64,000 nt of DNA from assembly GCA_030149365.1 (NCBI GenBank), contig JASBRP010000031.1, positions 1 through 64,000 on the forward strand. Direction: 5' to 3'. The position numbers and the translations under genes are program-made. Positions 47,797 through 56,361 of the stretch are shown here, piece by piece. Every line of letters starts with the position of its first letter. Positions within the stretch are counted from its first letter, which is position 1. Under the pieces are notes generated by a model. That model saw nothing but the letters and a program-made list of their open reading frames with translations, ran no database searches and was not told the origin of the DNA. The stretch is from Solimonas sp. (GTDB lineage Bacteria > Pseudomonadota > Gammaproteobacteria > Nevskiales > Nevskiaceae).

Positions 47797-48207
47797 ATGC
47801 CCTGCAAGCCGCCAGGCACATGGGCGAGGCCCCTGTGTCTGGCGGCTTTCATGCTGACGGCTTGCAGCGAGGGCGGACTGGGACAGGACCCGGACTCCAC
47901 CGTGGACCCTGCCACCCTTTGCGTGGTCTCGGACTGCGGCAGCAAGCTCAAGCTGGTCGATATTCCCGGCGGACGGACCTCCATGGCACCGGCTGGCGCC
48001 GGGAGGAAGGCGGACCTACCCATCCAGCGCTTCGAGCATCCCTATCCGGTAGCGCTCATGAATCCCGGGGCTCGCCCAGGATGGGCCGGGTCCTGTCCAG
48101 GCCCAGCAAGGCCGGGGACAGGAAGCCCGCCAGGCTCACCAACGCGCCGAGCGCTCCCATCAGTACGAACAGCCAGCGGATCCCGAGCCACTCCCCCAGC
48201 GGCGTAG
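47797..48207 (+). CDS. Small lipoprotein, 3' end probably disrupted
   Basis: A 136-codon frame starting 2 bp after the beta-helix gene. The signal peptide has lipobox LTAC (Cys23), followed by SEGGLGQDPDSTVDPATLCVVSDCGSKLKLVDIPGG, a plausible secreted sequence. From about residue 88 the frame runs antisense through the last 150 bp of the MFS gene and becomes Pro/Arg/Gly-rich with no natural look. The likely explanation is that a rearrangement replaced the original 3' part. The first about 85 residues are probably genuine; the tail is not. Function unknown. Confidence 0.5.
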   Translation: MPCKPPGTWARPLCLAAFMLTACSEGGLGQDPDSTVDPATLCVVSDCGSKLKLVDIPGGRTSMAPAGAGRKADLPIQRFEHPYPVALMNPGARPGWAGSCPGPARPGTGSPPGSPTRRALPSVRTASGSRATPPAA

Positions 48208-49357
48208 CGAGGATCAATCCCACCGGCGCCGCCAGCCCCATGACCATGCTGAGCAGTGACAGCACGCGGCCCTGCAGGTGATTGGGAATCGTCGTTTGCA
48301 GCAACGCGGTCAGCGGCGCATTGCCGAGAATGAAGCTCGTCCCGCTGAGAACCCAGCAGGCCACCGCCACCGCGAAGAGTCCCGCGGGCGCCAGCGCGGT
48401 CAGCGACATCGCCAGGCACGACAGCGCGAAGCCCCACAGCACCCAAGGCATCTGCCGCCGCGGCGCGAACGCCGCCACCAGCAAGCCGCCCAGCACCATA
48501 CCGATGCCGCCCAGCCCCTCCATCAGGGCAACTTGCGGCGCCCCACCGCCAAAGTGTTCCTTGACCAGCAGGGGCACCAGCGTGAACGTCGGCATGATGA
48601 CCAGCACCACGGCGCCCAGCAGGACGTAAAGCCAGCGCAGGCCCGGCTCATTCCACACCAGGTGGATGCCTTCACGGAACTCCCGCCAGATGCCACCGGC
48701 CTCCGCCTTGGGCAGGCGCGGCTGGGGAATGCGGAACAGCAGCAGCGGCACCACGCCCAGAAAGGCAGTGATGACATCCAGGCCCAGTGCCCAGCCCATC
48801 GGCATCACGCTGATGGCCAGCGCACCCAGGGGCGCGGCGGCAACCACGGTCAATGCCTGAAGGGTCTGGTTCAGCCCCGCAGCCCGCGGCAGGAAGCTGG
48901 CAGGCACCAGCATGGCCATGCTCGCCGCCGCCGCGGGAGCCTGGAAGGCCTGCATGGCGCTGCGGATGAACATCATGGCGTAGACATGCCAGAGCGCGAT
49001 GCTGTCAGTCAGGAACAGCGCGATCAGCACCGTCATGCATAGCGCGCTGATGACATCGGCCCCGATCATCAGCAGCCGCCTGCTATAGCGGTCCGCAAAG
49101 GTTCCGCCCAGCGGGCTGAGCAAGGCCTGCGGCAGCAGCGCCACCATGCCGGCGGTGGCCAGCGCCGACACACTGCCGGTGGTATCCGTGATCCACCAGA
49201 GCAGCACGAACTGCGTCAGGGCAGATCCGACCAGCGACAGCGCCTGGCCACCGAAGATGGCCCAGAAGCGCAATTGCCAGCCGGGACCAGGATCCTGCGC
49301 CAGTGCCTGGACCTCGATGACCGTGCTGGCGGCGGCGGGACCGCTGGGGGGCTGCAT
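48056..49357 (-). CDS. MFS exporter (drug/siderophore-efflux type)
   Basis: A 433-residue major facilitator with about 12 membrane helices. The N-terminal helix FWAIFGGQALSLVGSALTQFVLLWWITDTTGS and the loop GGTFADRYSRRLLMIGADV resemble MefA/EntS-type drug:H+ antiporters. The ATG at 49357 is used; the preceding in-frame codon is TTG. Its 3' end overlaps, antisense, the damaged lipoprotein frame, which supports insertion of this gene next to an older locus. The substrate is unknown. Confidence 0.88.
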   Translation of the reverse strand: MQPPSGPAAASTVIEVQALAQDPGPGWQLRFWAIFGGQALSLVGSALTQFVLLWWITDTTGSVSALATAGMVALLPQALLSPLGGTFADRYSRRLLMIGADVISALCMTVLIALFLTDSIALWHVYAMMFIRSAMQAFQAPAAAASMAMLVPASFLPRAAGLNQTLQALTVVAAAPLGALAISVMPMGWALGLDVITAFLGVVPLLLFRIPQPRLPKAEAGGIWREFREGIHLVWNEPGLRWLYVLLGAVVLVIMPTFTLVPLLVKEHFGGGAPQVALMEGLGGIGMVLGGLLVAAFAPRRQMPWVLWGFALSCLAMSLTALAPAGLFAVAVACWVLSGTSFILGNAPLTALLQTTIPNHLQGRVLSLLSMVMGLAAPVGLILATPLGEWLGIRWLFVLMGALGALVSLAGFLSPALLGLDRTRPILGEPRDS

Positions 49358-49479
49358 CAATGATGATCTTCGGGTTGAGAGGCAGGCCGGGGTCGAAAAA
49401 TCAGCATGTCCGCCAGTGACGGATGCTTTTGACGTATCGGCAAAGGAGACAGCAGTTTACCCGCTGTATCGGCGCACAC

Positions 49480-49535: not shown

Positions 49536-50570
49536 TCACCCCCGACTCGGCACGTTCGAGCGCTTCCGATGCCGACCGGGGCTGTACCCCGCGAATGTCC
49601 TGAATGATCGATTGAAGTTCGAGGGGTCCTGGAAGCCCAACGAATACGCCACCTCGTTGGCACTCATTCCACGGCCGAGGCGTTCGCACGCGACCTCATG
49701 CTGGATGCGACCGGCGAGTTCGCGAAACGAAGTGCCTTCGCGCTCCAGATAGCGGTGCAGCGTCCGTGTCGACAGGTTGAGCTGACCCGCCAGCTCCTCC
49801 TGCGAGGGCAGGCCATCGGCGACTTCGCGTAGGGTCATCGCGACCCAGTCGGCAAATCGTCCACCGTCGGCCGCTTTTTTAACCAGCGAACGGCATCGAT
49901 CCTCGGCAACCCGCCGGGCGTGGCTGTCGGCCATGTCGAGTCTCAGCGCGTCGGGATCCTCCAGGATGCACAGGCTGACGCACGGCAGGGCGCTGGCTTC
50001 GAAGCGAACTCGCACGCCCTTGAGCTCCTTCTGATATCGATGCAGGTGCGGCGGCTCGGGGATGGATATATCCAATCGGCACTGCGGGCGCCGGGCGCCG
50101 GTGAGATCGCGAACCCCCCGCAGGGCGGCCATGCCGATCGCCTCGAGGTGGAATGACAAGCTGAGATGGCTCATTGCCACCCGTGGCCGAAACTGCACCT
50201 CGCCATGGTTCGGCCCCCGCACATACCGCATGCTGAAGCTCGGCATCACGAGTCGGAAGTATTGCGCTTCGAAGCGCAAGGCCTCACCCAGCGTGGCACT
50301 GTTGAGCATGCCGAACCCGACGAAGCTGTGGGAACTGGCGCTCACCAGCTTGCCCAGGTCGAAGCCCAGGTCGGTTCGGCCCAGCATTCGCGACAGTTCG
50401 GCGATCAGCCGGTCGACTTTCGAAACCGGAATCGTCGCGTCGGGGGCTGTGAGCGTTCGCGGGGCGATACGGAGCGTTTTAAGGGCTACCTCCAGCGCGG
50501 ATTCCAGTTCCGGCGAGACTTCGGCGAGTCGCGCGTAGTAGCGGGCAGGCACTTTGGGTTCGGCGTCCAT
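49536..50570 (-). CDS. AraC-family transcriptional regulator (OruR-like)
   Basis: A 344-residue regulator. The N-terminal ligand domain (about residues 1-200, with RTLTAPDATIPVSKVDRLIAELSRMLGRTDLGFDLG) is of the arabinose-binding/OruR type. The C-terminal double helix-turn-helix contains PSQEELAGQLNLSTRTLHRYLEREGTSFRELAGRIQHEVACERLGRGMSANEVAYSLGFQDPSNFNRSFRTFAGYSPGRHRK. It is divergent from the P450 fusion gene with 146 bp between starts, an arrangement typical of an activator of alkane or terpene hydroxylase genes. The inducer is unknown. Confidence 0.92.
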   Translation of the reverse strand: MDAEPKVPARYYARLAEVSPELESALEVALKTLRIAPRTLTAPDATIPVSKVDRLIAELSRMLGRTDLGFDLGKLVSASSHSFVGFGMLNSATLGEALRFEAQYFRLVMPSFSMRYVRGPNHGEVQFRPRVAMSHLSLSFHLEAIGMAALRGVRDLTGARRPQCRLDISIPEPPHLHRYQKELKGVRVRFEASALPCVSLCILEDPDALRLDMADSHARRVAEDRCRSLVKKAADGGRFADWVAMTLREVADGLPSQEELAGQLNLSTRTLHRYLEREGTSFRELAGRIQHEVACERLGRGMSANEVAYSLGFQDPSNFNRSFRTFAGYSPGRHRKRSNVPSRG

Positions 50571-50597: not shown

Positions 50598-50703
50598 CTA
50601 TGGCGGATTATGACCATAAAGTGGCTGAATATCACCATCACGCAGTTAAGGATCAATCCAAGCTGATTGCCTGATGCTGTCCGGTCGCAAAAACTCGCCA
50701 TAG
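50598..50703. promoter_or_regulatory. Shared AraC / P450 promoter region with separated inverted repeat
   Basis: CTATGGCG (50598-50605) recurs inverted as CGCCATAG (50696-50703), about 90 bp apart, close to the two divergent starts. They might be AraC-type half sites; the evidence is only sequence symmetry. The P450 ribosome-binding site AGGGGGAATG follows the second copy. Confidence 0.3.
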
Positions 50704-50716
50704 GGGGAATGCAGTC

Positions 50717-53173
50717 ATGAGCTTGCTAAAAAAGGTGATCGACAAGGCACAGGCGAAGATTCCGCTGGAGCGACAGGTCCAGGGACTGAACCTGTACCAC
50801 AAGGCCAAGAGGCTCGTGGTCGAAGACAACCAGCCGGATTTCGTGGAGGAGAGGATCCCCGATGTCAACGAAGTTGCGCTGACTGACATCGACGTGAGCA
50901 ACCCGTTCTTGTGGCGGCAAGGACAGTGGCAGCCGTACTTCAAGCGACTGCGGGACGAAGCGCCTGTGCACTACCAGGCGAACAGCGCCTTCGGACCTTA
51001 CTGGTCGGTCACCCGCTACGACGATATCGTCACGGTGGACAAGGACTTCGAGACATTCTCTGCCGCGCCACAGATCGTGATCGGCAGCCCGCCCGAAGGC
51101 CTCGACATCGAGATGTTCATCGCCATGGACCCGCCGCGTCATGATGAGCAGCGGGCAGCGGTCCAGGGGGTCGTGGCCCCCCAGAACCTCGAGGAGCTGG
51201 AGGGACTCATCCGCTCTCGCGTGCAGGAGGTTCTCGACAATCTGCCTGTGCACGAACCATTCGACTGGGTGGACAAGGTCAGCATCGAGCTGACCGCTCG
51301 GATGCTCGCTACCCTCCTCGACTTTCCGTACGAGCAGCGTCGCAAGCTCGTCTATTGGACCGACGCGACGGCTGCCGCCGCCTCCGCGACCGGCGGCCTG
51401 AGTGACGTGGACGAGATATGGCGAGCCGTTGCCGACATGGCGAAGAGCTTCAGCGCCCTGTGGCACGACAAGGCGGCCCGACTGGCGGCTGGAGAGAAGC
51501 CCGGCTACGACCTGATCACGCTCATGCAGATGTCAGAGGATACCAAGGACCTGATCAACAGGCCGATGGAATTCCTCGGCAACCTCATCCTGCTGATCGT
51601 CGGAGGCAACGACACTACGCGCAACTCGATGTCGGGTGGCGTCTTTGCGCTGAACCTGTTCCCGGATGAGTTTGCTCGCCTCAAGAAGGACCACAAGCTC
51701 GTCCCGAAGCTGGTCAGTGAGATCATCCGCTGGCAGACTCCCCTGGCCTACATGCGCCGGATCGCCAAGAAGGACACTGTCCTCAACGGCCAATTCATCC
51801 GCAAGGGCGACAAGGTCGTCATGTGGTACGCGTCGGCCAATCGTGACGAGCGCACGTTCGAGAAGCCCGATGACTTCATCGTCGACCGTCCCAACGCACG
51901 CCACCACCTGGCATTCGGCATCGGCGTTCATCGCTGCATGGGCAGCCGCCTGGCCGAAATGCAGTTGCGGATCCTGTGGGAGGAGCTGCTGGCGCGGTTC
52001 GACGACATCGAAGTCATGGAAGAGCCGGAGTACATCCAGTCGAACTTCGTCAGGGGCTACACCAGGATGATGGTCACCCTCACGCCGATCGGCGAGACGA
52101 GTCGAACGGGAGGCCGCAGACGGGACGCGCTTCGAAATGGACAGGCGCAACGCGCCGGTGCAGGACGACAGCCCGACGTTACTCGAGCCACGCCGCTCGG
52201 CGCGCGTGAGGCGCGCGTCTCGAGCATCGCGGAACGCGATCTCGACCTTCGCGTCGCGGGCCGTCGAGACGTGGCGAAGGGCGTCGTCGAACTCACTCTG
52301 GCTGCCCCATCAGGGGCACAGCTGCCCTCCTGGACCGCCGGCGCTCACATCGATCTCGTACTTGGCCCGACTCTGACACGACAGTACTCCCTGTGCGGCA
52401 GTACCGCCGACAAGTCGATATGGAAAGTCGCCGTCCTTCGCGAGCCGGAAAGCCGGGGCGGTTCGGAACACGTCCACGAAGAGCTGACAGAGGGTGCCCT
52501 CATCCGAACTCGAGGTCCGCGCAACCACTTTCCCCTCGTCTCGTCCCCATGCTACCAATTCATTGCCGGCGGCATCGGCATCACGCCGATCCTCGCGATG
52601 ATCGAGGCCGCCGACGCGCGCGGCGCCGCGTGGAAGCTGTTTTACCTCGGTCGGTCCCGAGCGTCGATGGCATTCCTCGACAAGCTCGATGGCGACAGCC
52701 GGGTAACGGTCTGGGCGAAGGACGAGAAAGGACGGTTCGATCTCGCGTCGGTGCTCGGCACACCGCAGCCAGACACCTTGGTCTACTGCTGCGGCCCGGA
52801 AGCACTTCTTGACGCGGTCGAAGAAATGGGCGAATCGTGGCCCGAAGGCAGCGTACACATCGAGCGGTTCGCAGCCAAGAAGGTCGAGGCCCCCGAGGAC
52901 GCGCTGGACTCATTCGAGGTCGTGTGCACGCGCTCAGGGACGACCGTGAAGGTCAGCGAAGGCACCTCAACCTTCGAAGCACTCGAGAATGCCGGTGTCC
53001 ATGTGATGGGGTCCTGCATGAAAGGCATCTGCGGCACCTGCGAGGTTGACGTCATGGAGGGCACGCCCGACCACCGCGACTCGATCCTGTCCAAGGCAGA
53101 GCGTGCGCGTGGAGACACGATCATGCTTTGTGTTTCCCGCTCACTGTCAAAGAGGCTGGTGCTCGATGTGTGA
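50717..53173 (+). CDS. Self-sufficient cytochrome P450: CYP153-like heme domain fused to a PFOR-type reductase
   Basis: An 818-residue fusion. Residues 1-455 form a bacterial P450. The I-helix is GGNDTTRNSMSGG (297-309), the ExxR motif is E335-R338, and the heme loop is FGIGVHRCMG with Cys407; these most resemble CYP153 alkane/fatty-acid hydroxylases. A linker (456-500) leads to a phthalate-dioxygenase-reductase-type module: the flavin motif RQYSLCG (555-561), the NADH-binding GGIGITP (618-624) and CGP (692-694), then a C-terminal plant-type [2Fe-2S] domain with Cys767, 772, 775 and 805. It should oxidise its substrate with NADH and no separate redox partners. No in-frame start lies in the linker. 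The gene is divergent from an AraC-type activator. The substrate is unproven. Confidence 0.88.
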   Translation: MSLLKKVIDKAQAKIPLERQVQGLNLYHKAKRLVVEDNQPDFVEERIPDVNEVALTDIDVSNPFLWRQGQWQPYFKRLRDEAPVHYQANSAFGPYWSVTRYDDIVTVDKDFETFSAAPQIVIGSPPEGLDIEMFIAMDPPRHDEQRAAVQGVVAPQNLEELEGLIRSRVQEVLDNLPVHEPFDWVDKVSIELTARMLATLLDFPYEQRRKLVYWTDATAAAASATGGLSDVDEIWRAVADMAKSFSALWHDKAARLAAGEKPGYDLITLMQMSEDTKDLINRPMEFLGNLILLIVGGNDTTRNSMSGGVFALNLFPDEFARLKKDHKLVPKLVSEIIRWQTPLAYMRRIAKKDTVLNGQFIRKGDKVVMWYASANRDERTFEKPDDFIVDRPNARHHLAFGIGVHRCMGSRLAEMQLRILWEELLARFDDIEVMEEPEYIQSNFVRGYTRMMVTLTPIGETSRTGGRRRDALRNGQAQRAGAGRQPDVTRATPLGAREARVSSIAERDLDLRVAGRRDVAKGVVELTLAAPSGAQLPSWTAGAHIDLVLGPTLTRQYSLCGSTADKSIWKVAVLREPESRGGSEHVHEELTEGALIRTRGPRNHFPLVSSPCYQFIAGGIGITPILAMIEAADARGAAWKLFYLGRSRASMAFLDKLDGDSRVTVWAKDEKGRFDLASVLGTPQPDTLVYCCGPEALLDAVEEMGESWPEGSVHIERFAAKKVEAPEDALDSFEVVCTRSGTTVKVSEGTSTFEALENAGVHVMGSCMKGICGTCEVDVMEGTPDHRDSILSKAERARGDTIMLCVSRSLSKRLVLDV

Positions 53174-53537
53174 ACCATTCAAAGGACTGCCGGTTCGTCG
53201 CTGCAACCGCCGATGAGGCCTGGCATTTCCGATGACTGCGAAATGCTGGCGCGTCGATGTGCCTTGTCAGGCACAGGGTAAAGCGTCGTTGGACCTGGGT
53301 GATGAGTTCAACATCGCCGCCCGGCTCGCGAGGATTCGGGAGTCGATAACCTACGGGGCAAGCCAGCGCGGCACGGAGCGTGTGCCTGATATCGCGAGGA
53401 TTTCGATGCTGGTTTGCCCCCAAAGCCGTCATTGGTGAGAGGCAGCTGCTGGCACATTTGAGCCGCTCCGGCCGAATGTCTCAGGCCAGCCCAAAGCGGA
53501 ATTGGCGATATACCAATTCATTGCTGGTAAGCGGTCG
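53174..53537. other. Non-coding stretch between the P450 and arsenic genes
   Basis: These 364 bp hold no convincing gene; a 68-codon frame at 53232-53438 lacks a ribosome-binding site and family features. A short hairpin (GGTCG / CGACC near 53530-53543) overlaps the arsH stop. No terminator with a T-run was seen. Confidence 0.6.
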
Positions 53538-54308
53538 TTAGCGACCACCCACTTCTGGCGCCTCAGCCCCTGAGATAGCTATCGACGACAAGTCGGTCTC
53601 CGGGTCGATTGGGCGCTGCTCTTCCTTCCGCTCCGAGTACCGATCCACCAATGTTCCGGCATGAGGCCGCAGCAGGATCGTGAAGCGAACCAGTTCCTCC
53701 ATGACATCGACGATGCGATCGTAGTAGGACGAAAGCCGCATGCGGCCGTTGGCGTCGAACTCCTCGAAGGCCTTCGCGACGCTCGACTGGTTGGGGATCG
53801 TAAACATGCGCATCCAGCGCCCCAGGAGGCGCAGCGTGTTCACCGCGTTGAACGACTGCGAGCCGCCACTGACCTGCATGACCGCCAGCGTCCGACCCTG
53901 CGTCGGGCGGATTCCACCCATGTTGAGGGGCAGGTGATCAATCTGGGATTTCATCAGGCCGGTAATCTGGCCGTGGCGCTCAGGGCTGCACCAGACATGG
54001 CCTTCTGACCACGTGGACAGCTCCCTCAGTTCCTGCACCGCCGGATGCTTATCGCCGGCAACCTGATCGGGCATCGGCAAGTCCGAAGGATCGAAGATGC
54101 GGGCTTCAGCGCCGAAGTGATTCAGGATGCGAGCTGCCTCTTCCGTAGCGAAACGAGAGAAGGATCGCGGCCTCAGCGATCCGTAAAGCAGGAGGATGCG
54201 AGGCTTGTGCGTATCGGGGCCCAGGCCAAGGCCGGGCCGGCTCAGCACATAGCGCGAATCGAGTGCGGGAAGATGCTCTGCATCAGCGAGGATTCTAACG
54301 CGGCTCAC
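53538..54308 (-). CDS. arsH: ArsH NADPH-dependent FMN oxidoreductase
   Basis: A 256-residue flavodoxin-fold protein that oxidises trivalent organoarsenicals and reduces azo or metal substrates with NADPH. The FMN-phosphate loop is [13 protein letters not shown]. ArsH motifs include [61 protein letters not shown] and [27 protein letters not shown]. The start is GTG, overlapping the arsC stop (GTGA). It is last gene of the arsenic operon. Confidence 0.95.
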
Positions 54309-54748
54309 GATGTGCCACCGGCCTTCACCCGGATGCCTGCTGCGTCAACAACGACCTCGCCGTCTTCCTTGCTGAATGCGCCCTGCTGCGGTGTCGGCAG
54401 CAGGTCGAGCACCAATTCCGAGGGGCGGCACAAGCGGACCCCCTGAGGCGAGACGACAATGGGCCGATTGATGAGAATAGGGTGCTGCATCATCGCATCG
54501 AGCAGTTGCTCACCACTCAGCTCCGAGTTATCCAGGCCAAGCTCCGCAAAGGGCGTTCCTTTCTCGCGGAGAATCTCGCGAATCGGAATGCCCATTCGGC
54601 GGATGAGGGATGCCAGCAAGGGCTTTGCAGGAGGGGTCTTCAGGTACTCGATCACGTGCGGTTCGATGCCCGCGTTCCGGATCATTGCCAGGGTATTGCG
54701 GGAGGTTCCGCAATCCGGGTTGTGGTAGATGACGATATCGATATCCAT
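54305..54748 (-). CDS. arsC: Arsenate reductase, glutaredoxin-coupled type
   Basis: A 147-residue arsenate reductase. The active Cys sits in [16 protein letters not shown]; the arginine-containing motifs [22 protein letters not shown] are also typical. It reduces arsenate to arsenite using glutathione and glutaredoxin. The ATG at 54748 is used. A second, unrelated arsenate reductase type lies two genes upstream, so the operon has both mechanisms. Confidence 0.95.
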
Positions 54749-54777
54749 GCCAGTGCTCAATGTGGGCGGCTAAGTGC

Positions 54778-55473
54778 CTAATCCTGATGTGGCTGCAATA
54801 CATCTGGAGCGTGTTGCGGCAGAGCCGGCACGAGCCAGCGGAACAGCGCCGTGGCAGCCATGGCTCCCAGCAGTTGCGCGAGGATGAAGCCCGGAGCATC
54901 CCACGGCCGGATGCCCGCAAAACTTTCGGTGGCAGCACGGGCGAGCGTGACGGCGGGATTGGCGAACGAGGTGGACGCGGTGAACCAGTAGGCCGCAACG
55001 ATGTAGGAGGCCACGGCCAGCGGCACGGACTCTGCCCGGCGACGCGAGCAACCCCAGATCACAGCCAGCAAGCCGAAGGTGGCGACGAACTCGCTGAACA
55101 GCTGCGGCGCCCCGGCCCGCACCTTGGTGGATGCCGAAAATATTGGCTCTCCGAACATGAGGTGTGCCGCCGCCACGCCTGCAAAGGCGCCGGAGATCTG
55201 TGCCAAGACATAGCCAGGAACTTCGCCCCACGGCAGGCCACGTTGCCAGGCATCGGCGAGCGTCACGGCCGGGTTGAAGTGGGCCCCGGAAATGGGGCCG
55301 AACGTCAGGATCAGCGCCACCAGGGCGGCGCCCGTTGCCAGTGTATTCGCCAGCAGCGCAAGGGCAACGTTCCCGCCAGCCAGGCGCTCGGCCATGATGC
55401 CGGAGCCAACTACTGTGGCCAGCAGCAGCGAGGTGCCAAGGGCTTCGGCGACGAGACGACGGGAATAGCTCAT
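54778..55473 (-). CDS. aqpS: Aquaporin-type arsenite channel (AqpS-like)
   Basis: A 231-residue major intrinsic protein with six membrane helices and two NPA boxes, HFNPAVTLADA and FANPAVTLARA. In the arsenic operon of Sinorhizobium meliloti, a channel of this kind replaces the efflux pump: arsenite made inside by ArsC leaves by diffusion through AqpS. No arsB or acr3 is present here, which matches that scheme. The start overlaps the upstream arsC stop by 4 bp. A 5'-truncated second copy lies at 58432-58738. Confidence 0.93.
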   Translation of the reverse strand: MSYSRRLVAEALGTSLLLATVVGSGIMAERLAGGNVALALLANTLATGAALVALILTFGPISGAHFNPAVTLADAWQRGLPWGEVPGYVLAQISGAFAGVAAAHLMFGEPIFSASTKVRAGAPQLFSEFVATFGLLAVIWGCSRRRAESVPLAVASYIVAAYWFTASTSFANPAVTLARAATESFAGIRPWDAPGFILAQLLGAMAATALFRWLVPALPQHAPDVLQPHQD

Positions 55474-55970
55474 TCCTTGCCGATGTCCGCGACGCGCTTC
55501 TGGAGGGCCAGCCGATCAAGCTTGTCGAAGGGAAGGCTGGCGAAGAGTTCGATGCGACGGCGCAGTACCAGGAAGGTGTCGGTGAAGGCGCGGCGCTTCT
55601 GATCATCGGAGCCTTCCACGGCGGCCGGGTCAGGCATACCCCAATGTGCCGTCATTGGCTGCCCTGGCCAATAGGGGCATTGCTCACCGGCCGCCTGATC
55701 GCAAACGGTAAAAACGAAGTCCAACCCCGGAGCCCCCGGCAGCGCGAATTCGTCCCAACTTTTGCTGCGTAGGCCCTCAGTAGACAGGTGGCTGCGCTGA
55801 AGCAGTTCGATGGCGAAGGGGTTTACCTCGCCTCGGGGCTGACTGCCCGCGCTATAGGCCTTGAACTTGCCCATGCTGAGACTGAGATTGTTCATCGCAG
55901 CTTCGGCCAGGATCGACCGGGCGGAGTTACCCGTGCAGAGGAACAGGACGTTGAAAGGTTTGTGCGACAC
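55470..55970 (-). CDS. arsC: Arsenate reductase, low-molecular-weight phosphatase type
   Basis: A 166-residue LMW-PTPase-fold arsenate reductase. The P-loop is LFLCTGNSARSILAEA with nucleophile Cys; the second catalytic Cys is probably in FVFTVCDQAAGEQCPYWPGQP, and DP of GMPDPAAVEG is the general acid. It reduces arsenate with thioredoxin or a similar partner. It is the first enzyme gene after arsR and overlaps aqpS. Confidence 0.94.
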   Translation of the reverse strand: MSHKPFNVLFLCTGNSARSILAEAAMNNLSLSMGKFKAYSAGSQPRGEVNPFAIELLQRSHLSTEGLRSKSWDEFALPGAPGLDFVFTVCDQAAGEQCPYWPGQPMTAHWGMPDPAAVEGSDDQKRRAFTDTFLVLRRRIELFASLPFDKLDRLALQKRVADIGKE

Positions 55971-56028
55971 GGTGGACTCCGTCCATCAGCAGTAAGACTT
56001 GGCGGGGGTGGTGTGAAGACGCTGCATA

Positions 56029-56361
56029 TCAGCACTCCTTGCAGCTGGCAGGCGTGGAGCACTCAGTCGCGGTCGTGCTCTCTGCGCAGCAGTTCTCGGT
56101 GAGGTATGCGAGAAGGCTGTTCATGACCTTGAAGTCAGGCGCGTAATAGATGAAACGGCCTTCCTGGCGGGACTTCAGCAGGCCGACGCTGCTCAGTTCC
56201 TTGAGGTGGAACGAGAGGGTGTTGGGTGCCACGCCCAGGCGCTCAGCGATATCGCCGGCAGCCATGCCGTCCGGGCCCTTTTGGACGAGCAGGCGGAATA
56301 GGGCGAGACGAGACCCCTGAGCCAAGGCTCCCAGCAGTGAAACAGCGGCATCGATCTTCAT
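56029..56361 (-). CDS. arsR: ArsR-family arsenite-responsive repressor
   Basis: A 110-residue winged-helix repressor (DGMAAGDIAERLGVAPNTLSFHLKELSSVGLLKSRQEGRFIYY). It lacks the classical Cys-Val-Cys site in the DNA-binding helix. Instead it ends with Cys91, Cys92, Cys101, Cys107 and Cys110, similar to the C-terminal As(III) site of the Acidithiobacillus ferrooxidans type. It represses the ars operon through dyads just upstream of its own start. Confidence 0.94.
   Translation of the reverse strand: MKIDAAVSLLGALAQGSRLALFRLLVQKGPDGMAAGDIAERLGVAPNTLSFHLKELSSVGLLKSRQEGRFIYYAPDFKVMNSLLAYLTENCCAESTTATECSTPASCKEC

Follow-up and report, generated by a model that had tools for sequence, protein, structure and literature searches.

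A natural fusion of a CYP153A heme domain with a PDR/VanB-type reductase in Solimonas sp. and its mostly actinobacterial relatives

The fusion gene and its surroundings

The stretch of DNA analysed here, referred to as the window, comprises 64,000 nucleotides of contig JASBRP010000031.1 of Solimonas sp. On its forward strand, a single open reading frame codes for a CYP153A heme domain followed, after a linker, by a PDR/VanB-type reductase (Table 1). An AraC-family regulatory gene is divergently oriented with respect to the fusion gene, and the space between the two genes contains a tandem repeat. Adjoining the AraC gene is a gene for an MFS transporter (48056-49360, minus strand), the product of which resembles NCBIfam models for H+ antiporters and for macrolide efflux, at scores under their cut-offs. 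Downstream of the fusion lies what is probably the degraded start of a Rieske gene and, past it, an arsenic gene group (53538-56361, minus strand), in which ArsH and a glutaredoxin-type ArsC score above the NCBIfam cut-offs and aquaporin-like, phosphatase-like and ArsR-like ORFs were recognized by reading only.

Table 1. Features of the fusion locus (positions in the window)
Feature	Position	Strand	Remarks
CYP153A-PDR/VanB fusion, predicted natural self-sufficient P450	50717..53173	+	818 aa, ATG 50717 to TGA 53173
CYP153A heme domain	50717..52087	+	residues 1-457; heme Cys407
Interdomain linker	52088..52240	+	residues ~458-508; length and sequence variable; without start codon
PDR/VanB-type reductase	52241..53170	+	residues 509-818: flavin/NAD(P)H part followed by the [2Fe-2S] part (Cys767, 772, 775, 805)
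AraC-family regulator, Arabinose_bd N-terminus	49536..50570	-	divergent from fusion; 146 bp between starts
Tandem 17-bp direct repeats, putative AraC operator	50601..50638		50601-50617 and 50622-50638; 21-bp period; also in S. fluminis
Probable degraded start of VanA-type Rieske gene	53170..53271	+	GTG overlaps fusion TGA by 4 bp; TGA after 21 codons; no clear similarity past ~53217

The original prediction, made from the sequence of the window, had proposed that a heme domain and a flavin/[2Fe-2S] reductase are encoded by one ORF. In agreement with this, the ORF listing and the translation contain no internal stop, and Pfam recognizes along the protein, in this order, P450, NAD_binding_1 (22.0 bits, which is exactly the cut-off) and Fer2. 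The residues expected to bind the cofactors are all in place in the window protein and are invariant across 15 aligned fusions, as assessed for Cys407 of the FGIGVHRCMG motif, Y557-S558-L559 of RQYSL, G618-G619-I620-G621, T623-P624, and Cys767, 772, 775 and 805; the cofactor role of each is known from the respective families. The linker was also found to lack a start codon, as predicted, with no ATG, GTG or TTG codon between residues 453 and 518. Two full-length P450-reductase chains in the PDB, 6kbh and 6laa, align with residues 77-816 and 75-818 of the fusion, respectively. The heme, flavin/NAD(P)H and PFOR-type [2Fe-2S] domains are thus carried on one chain, as in class VII enzymes. Conversely, the class I arrangement usual for CYP153A, with a separate ferredoxin and ferredoxin reductase, is not what we find, since the PDR/VanB-type reductase is part of the same ORF. 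Structure prediction for the fusion gave a mean pLDDT of 54.1 (15 close relatives aligned), which is unusable, and we make no claim about domain geometry.

In a scan of genome contigs, the best 80 of 596 confirmed stretches consisted of 14 loci that cover all 818 residues and 66 that match the heme part only, the latter reaching residue 499 at most. The 14 loci, a plasmid of Tsukamurella tyrosinosolvens, ten loci from a family sample (that of Nocardioides G147) and one from an order sample (that of Tsukamurella G149) together make up the 26 loci besides the window. By genome, these at least 26 loci are distributed over Solimonas fluminis, 13 and 11 further genomes (the 11 actinobacterial) and one plasmid. 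Duplicate entries of a genome, recognized by their handles and coordinates, were removed ahead of the count (L013, G001 and G146 all stand for S. fluminis); the reductases of L156 and L157, both counted, are identical.

Both domains lie within one ORF at 25 of the 26 other loci. In the exception (L165:1387-3951), an in-frame TGA in the linker splits the CYP153A-reductase pair, and the first ATG, GTG or TTG among the codons printed past this TGA is a GTG at the start of the reductase domain. Comparison with six relatives gave pN/pS values of 0.19-0.30 for the heme domain and 0.26-0.40 for the reductase; values for the linker were 0.62-0.71, computed from only 30-42 poorly alignable codons. As judged from these ratios, both domains are under purifying selection. 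A sequencing or assembly error could in principle have joined two adjacent genes, and a separate reductase gene does adjoin a stand-alone CYP153A-like gene in 17 of the 40 plasmid matches listed. In those 17 matches, however, the neighbours are annotated as FAD-dependent oxidoreductases and not as PDR/VanB proteins, and the single ORFs at the other loci, together with the low pN/pS of both domains, leave such an error next to no probability. We conclude that the fusion is due neither to chance nor to a sequencing error. In particular, because 25 of 26 related loci hold both domains in one ORF, it is not the product of a frameshift in the linker, which the original prediction had named as the finding that would overturn it.

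Relationships of the heme and reductase domains

The best match of residues 6-457 in the PDB is 5fyf (1.8e-211), which we take to be CYP153A33; the next chains include 3rwl (CYP153A7) and 5h1z (CYP153D17). The heme domain is 74-85% identical to those of the 26 other fusions and 61-73% identical to 94 stand-alone CYP153A rows, and in a tree of 126 rows, built with a quick method, the fusion hemes (27 of 27) form one clade inside CYP153A (SH-aLRT 100). Members of a CYP subfamily share more than 55% identity. By both identity and position in the tree, the heme domain is a CYP153A; the earlier description "CYP153-like" had the affinity right and was too loosely worded.

The possibility that the protein is an ordinary class VII P450 of the CYP116B type, with a heme domain that merely resembles CYP153, is suggested by the order of its domains, shared with 6kbh and 6laa over the ranges given above. 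It is contradicted by the heme domain itself, only 29-30% identical to three CYP116B-type rows, and by the tree, in which the CYP116B-type rows, set as outgroup, sit beyond very long branches. The label of these rows is based on PDB matches: L208 spans the whole of 6kbh, and both L206 and L208 match 6laa, 6gii, described as CYP116B46 (PMC7260179), and P450 RhF (6ro8). Membership of the heme domain in CYP116B, a grouping that the original prediction had offered as a means of refuting it, is thereby ruled out, and we give this reading of the protein almost no credence. Three positions of CYP153A33 at which mutation is described to shift regioselectivity, G307, L354 and S233 (PMC9112060), are identical in the alignment with the window protein, as G296, L343 and S223.

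When the reductase part alone was used, the matches in the PDB were 6kbh, 6laa, phthalate dioxygenase reductase (2pia) and 7ylr, and the domain is co-linear with the first three of these. A 310-residue match to 2pia and the four cysteines invariant in the 15 fusions place it in the PDR/VanB family. In a reductase tree of 69 rows, all 27 reductases of CYP153 fusions form one clade (100/98) and four CYP116B-type fusions form a separate one (100/100). The bootstrap of this tree has not fully settled, and a topology uniting the two groups in one clade was not rejected in an AU test (p 0.156). The reductase of the window is 57-76% identical to those of the other CYP153 fusions, at most 57% identical to stand-alone reductases and at most 56% identical to the reductases of other P450 fusions, down to 41% for one CYP116B-type protein. 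Several stand-alone reductases resemble it to much the same degree as those of other P450 fusions do (55-57%). Other natural P450-PFOR fusions were seen in the Nocardioides family sample (L186, L187, L189, L190 and L191); their heme domains are 27-29% identical to CYP153, and their reductases, 52-57% identical to that of the window, fall outside the CYP116B-type clade.

A stand-alone reductase (57%) encoded on a plasmid of M. paragordonae groups as a weakly supported sister in the reductase tree (95/68). Its gene overlaps a Rieske gene by 4 bp, and beside it are genes for a P450 only 29% like CYP153 and for an aldehyde dehydrogenase. Because of the overlap with a Rieske gene, a VanB-VanA origin of the fusion reductase is possible. 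The reductase may derive from a VanB-like stand-alone gene, from a different P450 fusion or, a source that we do not favour, from CYP116B. As far as the heme domains go, the CYP153-reductase junction is an event separate from the CYP116B junction, since the fusion hemes lie inside CYP153A and are 29-30% identical to the CYP116B-type rows.

Distribution, regulator and downstream Rieske gene

Full-length matches were found in 13 of 294 genomes in the family of G147 (one being the split L165), in 5 of 397 genomes in the order of G149 (strict threshold), in 2 of 146 relatives of the window, and in 1 of 369 genomes of its class, which is the window itself. These counts are not unbiased rates, as the samples include known carriers (3 of the 13 and 4 of the 5). 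Among 1,230 matching plasmid records, one has the reductase part at 60% identity or more; this is the T. tyrosinosolvens plasmid, whose fusion copy is already annotated as "cytochrome P450/oxidoreductase". We found no natural CYP153-PFOR fusion in the open-licence full-text literature; papers behind subscription fall mostly outside it, and one may be in print elsewhere. The original prediction of a natural CYP153-reductase fusion holds as to its being natural; the fusion is not a one-off, as it belongs to a mostly actinobacterial clade.

In the reductase tree, the window falls in a set of 14 rows (98/80), the other 13 of which are actinobacterial by name or by sample, and the S. fluminis copy branches just outside this set (97/91). 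Nested as it is among actinobacterial copies, the window copy was probably acquired horizontally. Because the two Solimonas copies are not sisters, one or two transfers are possible. The direction of transfer is supported less strongly than are the fusion, its clade, the cofactor residues and the purifying selection on both domains.

The AraC protein is 79% identical to the S. fluminis AraC. The idea that the fusion has a dedicated AraC regulator could be upheld in part. A divergent AraC gene is indeed present; among 18 other fusion loci with neighbours called (the 14 scan loci, L146 and L227-L229), it occurs only in S. fluminis (L013). Moreover, the family is large, 37 of 100 relatives having matches. 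In four genomes (G052, G060, G064 and G070), the listed coordinates place a stand-alone CYP153 match 265-575 bp away from an AraC relative (42-61% identical), and most AraC relatives among the matches listed are not at CYP153 genes. The protein hits the NCBIfam models CypR, QhpR and GliR, with scores that fall well short of the cut-offs. CypR is described as the AraC-type protein that activates CYP153 in Alcanivorax and Dietzia; CYP153 clusters of Dietzia and Mycolicibacterium NBB4 are reported to have AraC genes divergently placed beside them (PMC8784404). The AraC protein may regulate the fusion gene. The tandem repeat was seen in an alignment; the repeat search reported the S. fluminis copy and not that of the window. 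Elsewhere in the genome the pattern matches only three sites, with two mismatches (two sites for a reversed-pattern control), and both this count and the chance estimate use a pattern built from the repeats themselves. A promoter scan between the AraC gene and the fusion gave one minus-strand match against a shuffle mean of 0.3, which is uninformative.

A link to a Rieske gene was unexpected and was absent from the original prediction. At 16 of the 26 other loci, the stop codon of the fusion and the start of the next gene (14 ATG, 2 GTG) overlap by 4 bp; this gene codes for a protein of 336-349 aa, and Pfam detected Rieske and VanA_C domains in the two proteins scanned. In the reductase tree, all 16 Rieske-bearing loci and the window form one set of 17 rows (96/88); the ten loci that lack the gene are all outside it, and in six of them a convergent TetR-type gene follows the fusion instead. 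The neighbour gene caller was crude (it overlooked, for instance, the L227 pair and the L226 reductase), and the absence of neighbours rests also on an ORF search. Because all ten Rieske-less loci lie outside the set, the gene would either have been gained in the sub-clade or have been lost several times outside it. As the ten fusions without it branch outside, so that several losses would be needed, we consider the Rieske gene unsupported as an ancestral part of the cassette.

In the window, the frame that opens with the GTG resembles the first 16 residues of the Rieske proteins and then ends in a TGA. Local scores against seven Rieske proteins were 39-53, whereas shuffled sequences averaged about 18 and peaked at 35-42; mononucleotide shuffles reached the score of the remnant in 0 of 2000 cases for six queries and in 1 of 2000 for the seventh. 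In a plain tblastn search over the whole window the site had an E value of 0.15 and even so ranked first. The window probably carries a decayed Rieske gene, a reading based on the combination of score, position and phase. Six-frame scores past about 53271 are without a control, and our claim stops there. No close Rieske relative was found elsewhere in the genome of the window, the best match being 26% identical (the assembly is 93% complete).

The Rieske proteins of the 16 loci keep all four Cys/His ligands of the Rieske cluster. At the iron site, however, comparison with 7qwt and dicamba O-demethylase showed that the usual N..D..H....H reads H..D..N....H, the roles of these positions being those generally known for Rieske enzymes. 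His153, Asp156, Asn159, His164 and Asp291 (S. fluminis numbering) are present in all 16 proteins, such as L013:7421-8434 and L024:7403-8422; the M. paragordonae Rieske protein has Tyr at position 159. Structure prediction for the S. fluminis Rieske protein was unusable (mean pLDDT 48.1, 7 close relatives aligned). Ligand loss was seen in VanA-like proteins encoded beside stand-alone PDR/VanB reductases (L214-L219 and L226): at least one Rieske ligand is lost in 7 of 7, and in five of them Asp, Ser and Ser replace Cys, Cys and His. The neighbours of L219 code for a glutamine-synthetase-like protein and an amino acid permease, perhaps part of an amine pathway.

The reductase may be a shared hub that supplies the CYP153A heme on its own chain and also, in trans, a co-translated Rieske protein of the VanA type, with the Rieske half decayed in the window and the P450 function alone left. 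The overlapping genes at the 16 loci, the Rieske and VanA_C domains, the intact Rieske ligands and a remnant at the same position and in the same phase as the Rieske start elsewhere are all consistent with this, and VanB-type reductases are established as the natural partners of VanA-type oxygenases. However, the gene is missing from ten loci, all outside the sub-clade, and may be a late addition; the first iron-site His is Asn in all 16 proteins, which may not be active oxygenases; and the remnant is weak by itself in plain tblastn. On balance, we regard a shared hub as possible, though somewhat doubtful. More speculative still, and in our view unlikely, is a two-oxygenase machine in the sub-clade of the window, in which the CYP153A-fused reductase would also drive a co-translated Rieske protein whose iron site has been rewired; the lineage of the window would have discarded the second half. 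If true, there would be one electron source for two kinds of C-H oxidation, or a new, non-classical role for a Rieske protein.

Predicted function and comparison with known systems

Our preferred reading, which we hold with considerable confidence, is that the fusion is a natural, class VII-like, self-sufficient CYP153A terminal hydroxylase of actinobacterial origin that reached Solimonas by transfer. A CYP153A gene would have been joined in frame to a gene for a PDR/VanB-type reductase; the cassette would have evolved in Actinomycetota and entered the lineage of the window horizontally, where it sits beside an AraC gene of a family also found near other CYP153 genes and appears to have lost the downstream Rieske gene. 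Within the one chain, the flavin would take up electrons from NAD(P)H and relay them through the C-terminal [2Fe-2S] cluster to the heme, where alkanes, fatty acids or chains like these would be hydroxylated at a terminal C-H. CYP153A enzymes are known for oxidizing alkanes and fatty acids at the chain end. We infer this path and reaction, as well as activity, substrate and nucleotide preference, from the sequence. A second CYP153 was not found in the genome, in which the next P450 match is 33% identical (assembly 93% complete).

The native substrate could also be something other than an alkane or fatty acid, such as a terpene or an aromatic side chain. CYP153A13 is described to accept phenols as well as aromatic compounds, the latter at their alkyl chains (PMC12416667), and within the locus no alkane-pathway genes were seen adjoining the fusion. 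We think this improbable, as the selectivity positions match those of CYP153A33 and the AraC family also adjoins CYP153 genes.

With VanAB-type Rieske systems, the fusion shares the reductase family and, at the 16 loci, a VanA-type gene downstream; unlike in those systems, the reductase is fused to a P450 and the Rieske iron site is altered. A P450 is here tied to a Rieske gene via a reductase that is possibly shared.

Laboratory chimeras of CYP153A with PFOR reductases were reportedly made by Nodate (2006) and Fujita (2009). Terminal oxyfunctionalisation is a use to which CYP153A enzymes are put, and fusions were built because of inefficient electron supply (PMC3815936). The chimeras of Scheps (2013) consist of the same two parts in the same order as the natural fusion. 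That such chimeras exist, as the original prediction had stated, agrees with the constructs described in PMC3815936; these used CYP116B-type reductases, whereas the natural fusion has its own junction and its own reductase. With the CYP116B3 construct, coupling is reported to be about twofold better than that of the three-component system with C12 acid and 1.6-fold worse than that of a CPR fusion for both n-octane and C12 acid; octanoic acid was not converted (PMC3815936). A combination built by hand by chemists occurs here in nature. The natural clade, with its varied linker lengths, offers ready templates and lets the co-adaptation of P450 and reductase be studied.

Compared with CYP153A33 of Marinobacter and its relatives, the heme domain is alike by tree and identity and conserves the residues corresponding to G307, L354 and S233. 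Native CYP153A enzymes, however, are described as needing a separate ferredoxin and ferredoxin reductase (PMC3815936), and here a PDR/VanB-type reductase is fused at the C-terminus. The class VII CYP116B enzymes P450 RhF and CYP116B46 have the same order of heme, flavin/NAD(P)H reductase and [2Fe-2S] domains on one chain with linkers (PMC7260179), and CYP116B is reported to prefer NADPH (PMC11889516). They differ from the fusion in belonging to another P450 family (29-30% heme identity), and their reductases lie in a separate tree clade, although the union of the two clades is not rejected (p 0.156). With the fusion, the class VII architecture would come to include, besides CYP116B, another P450 family that is well studied.
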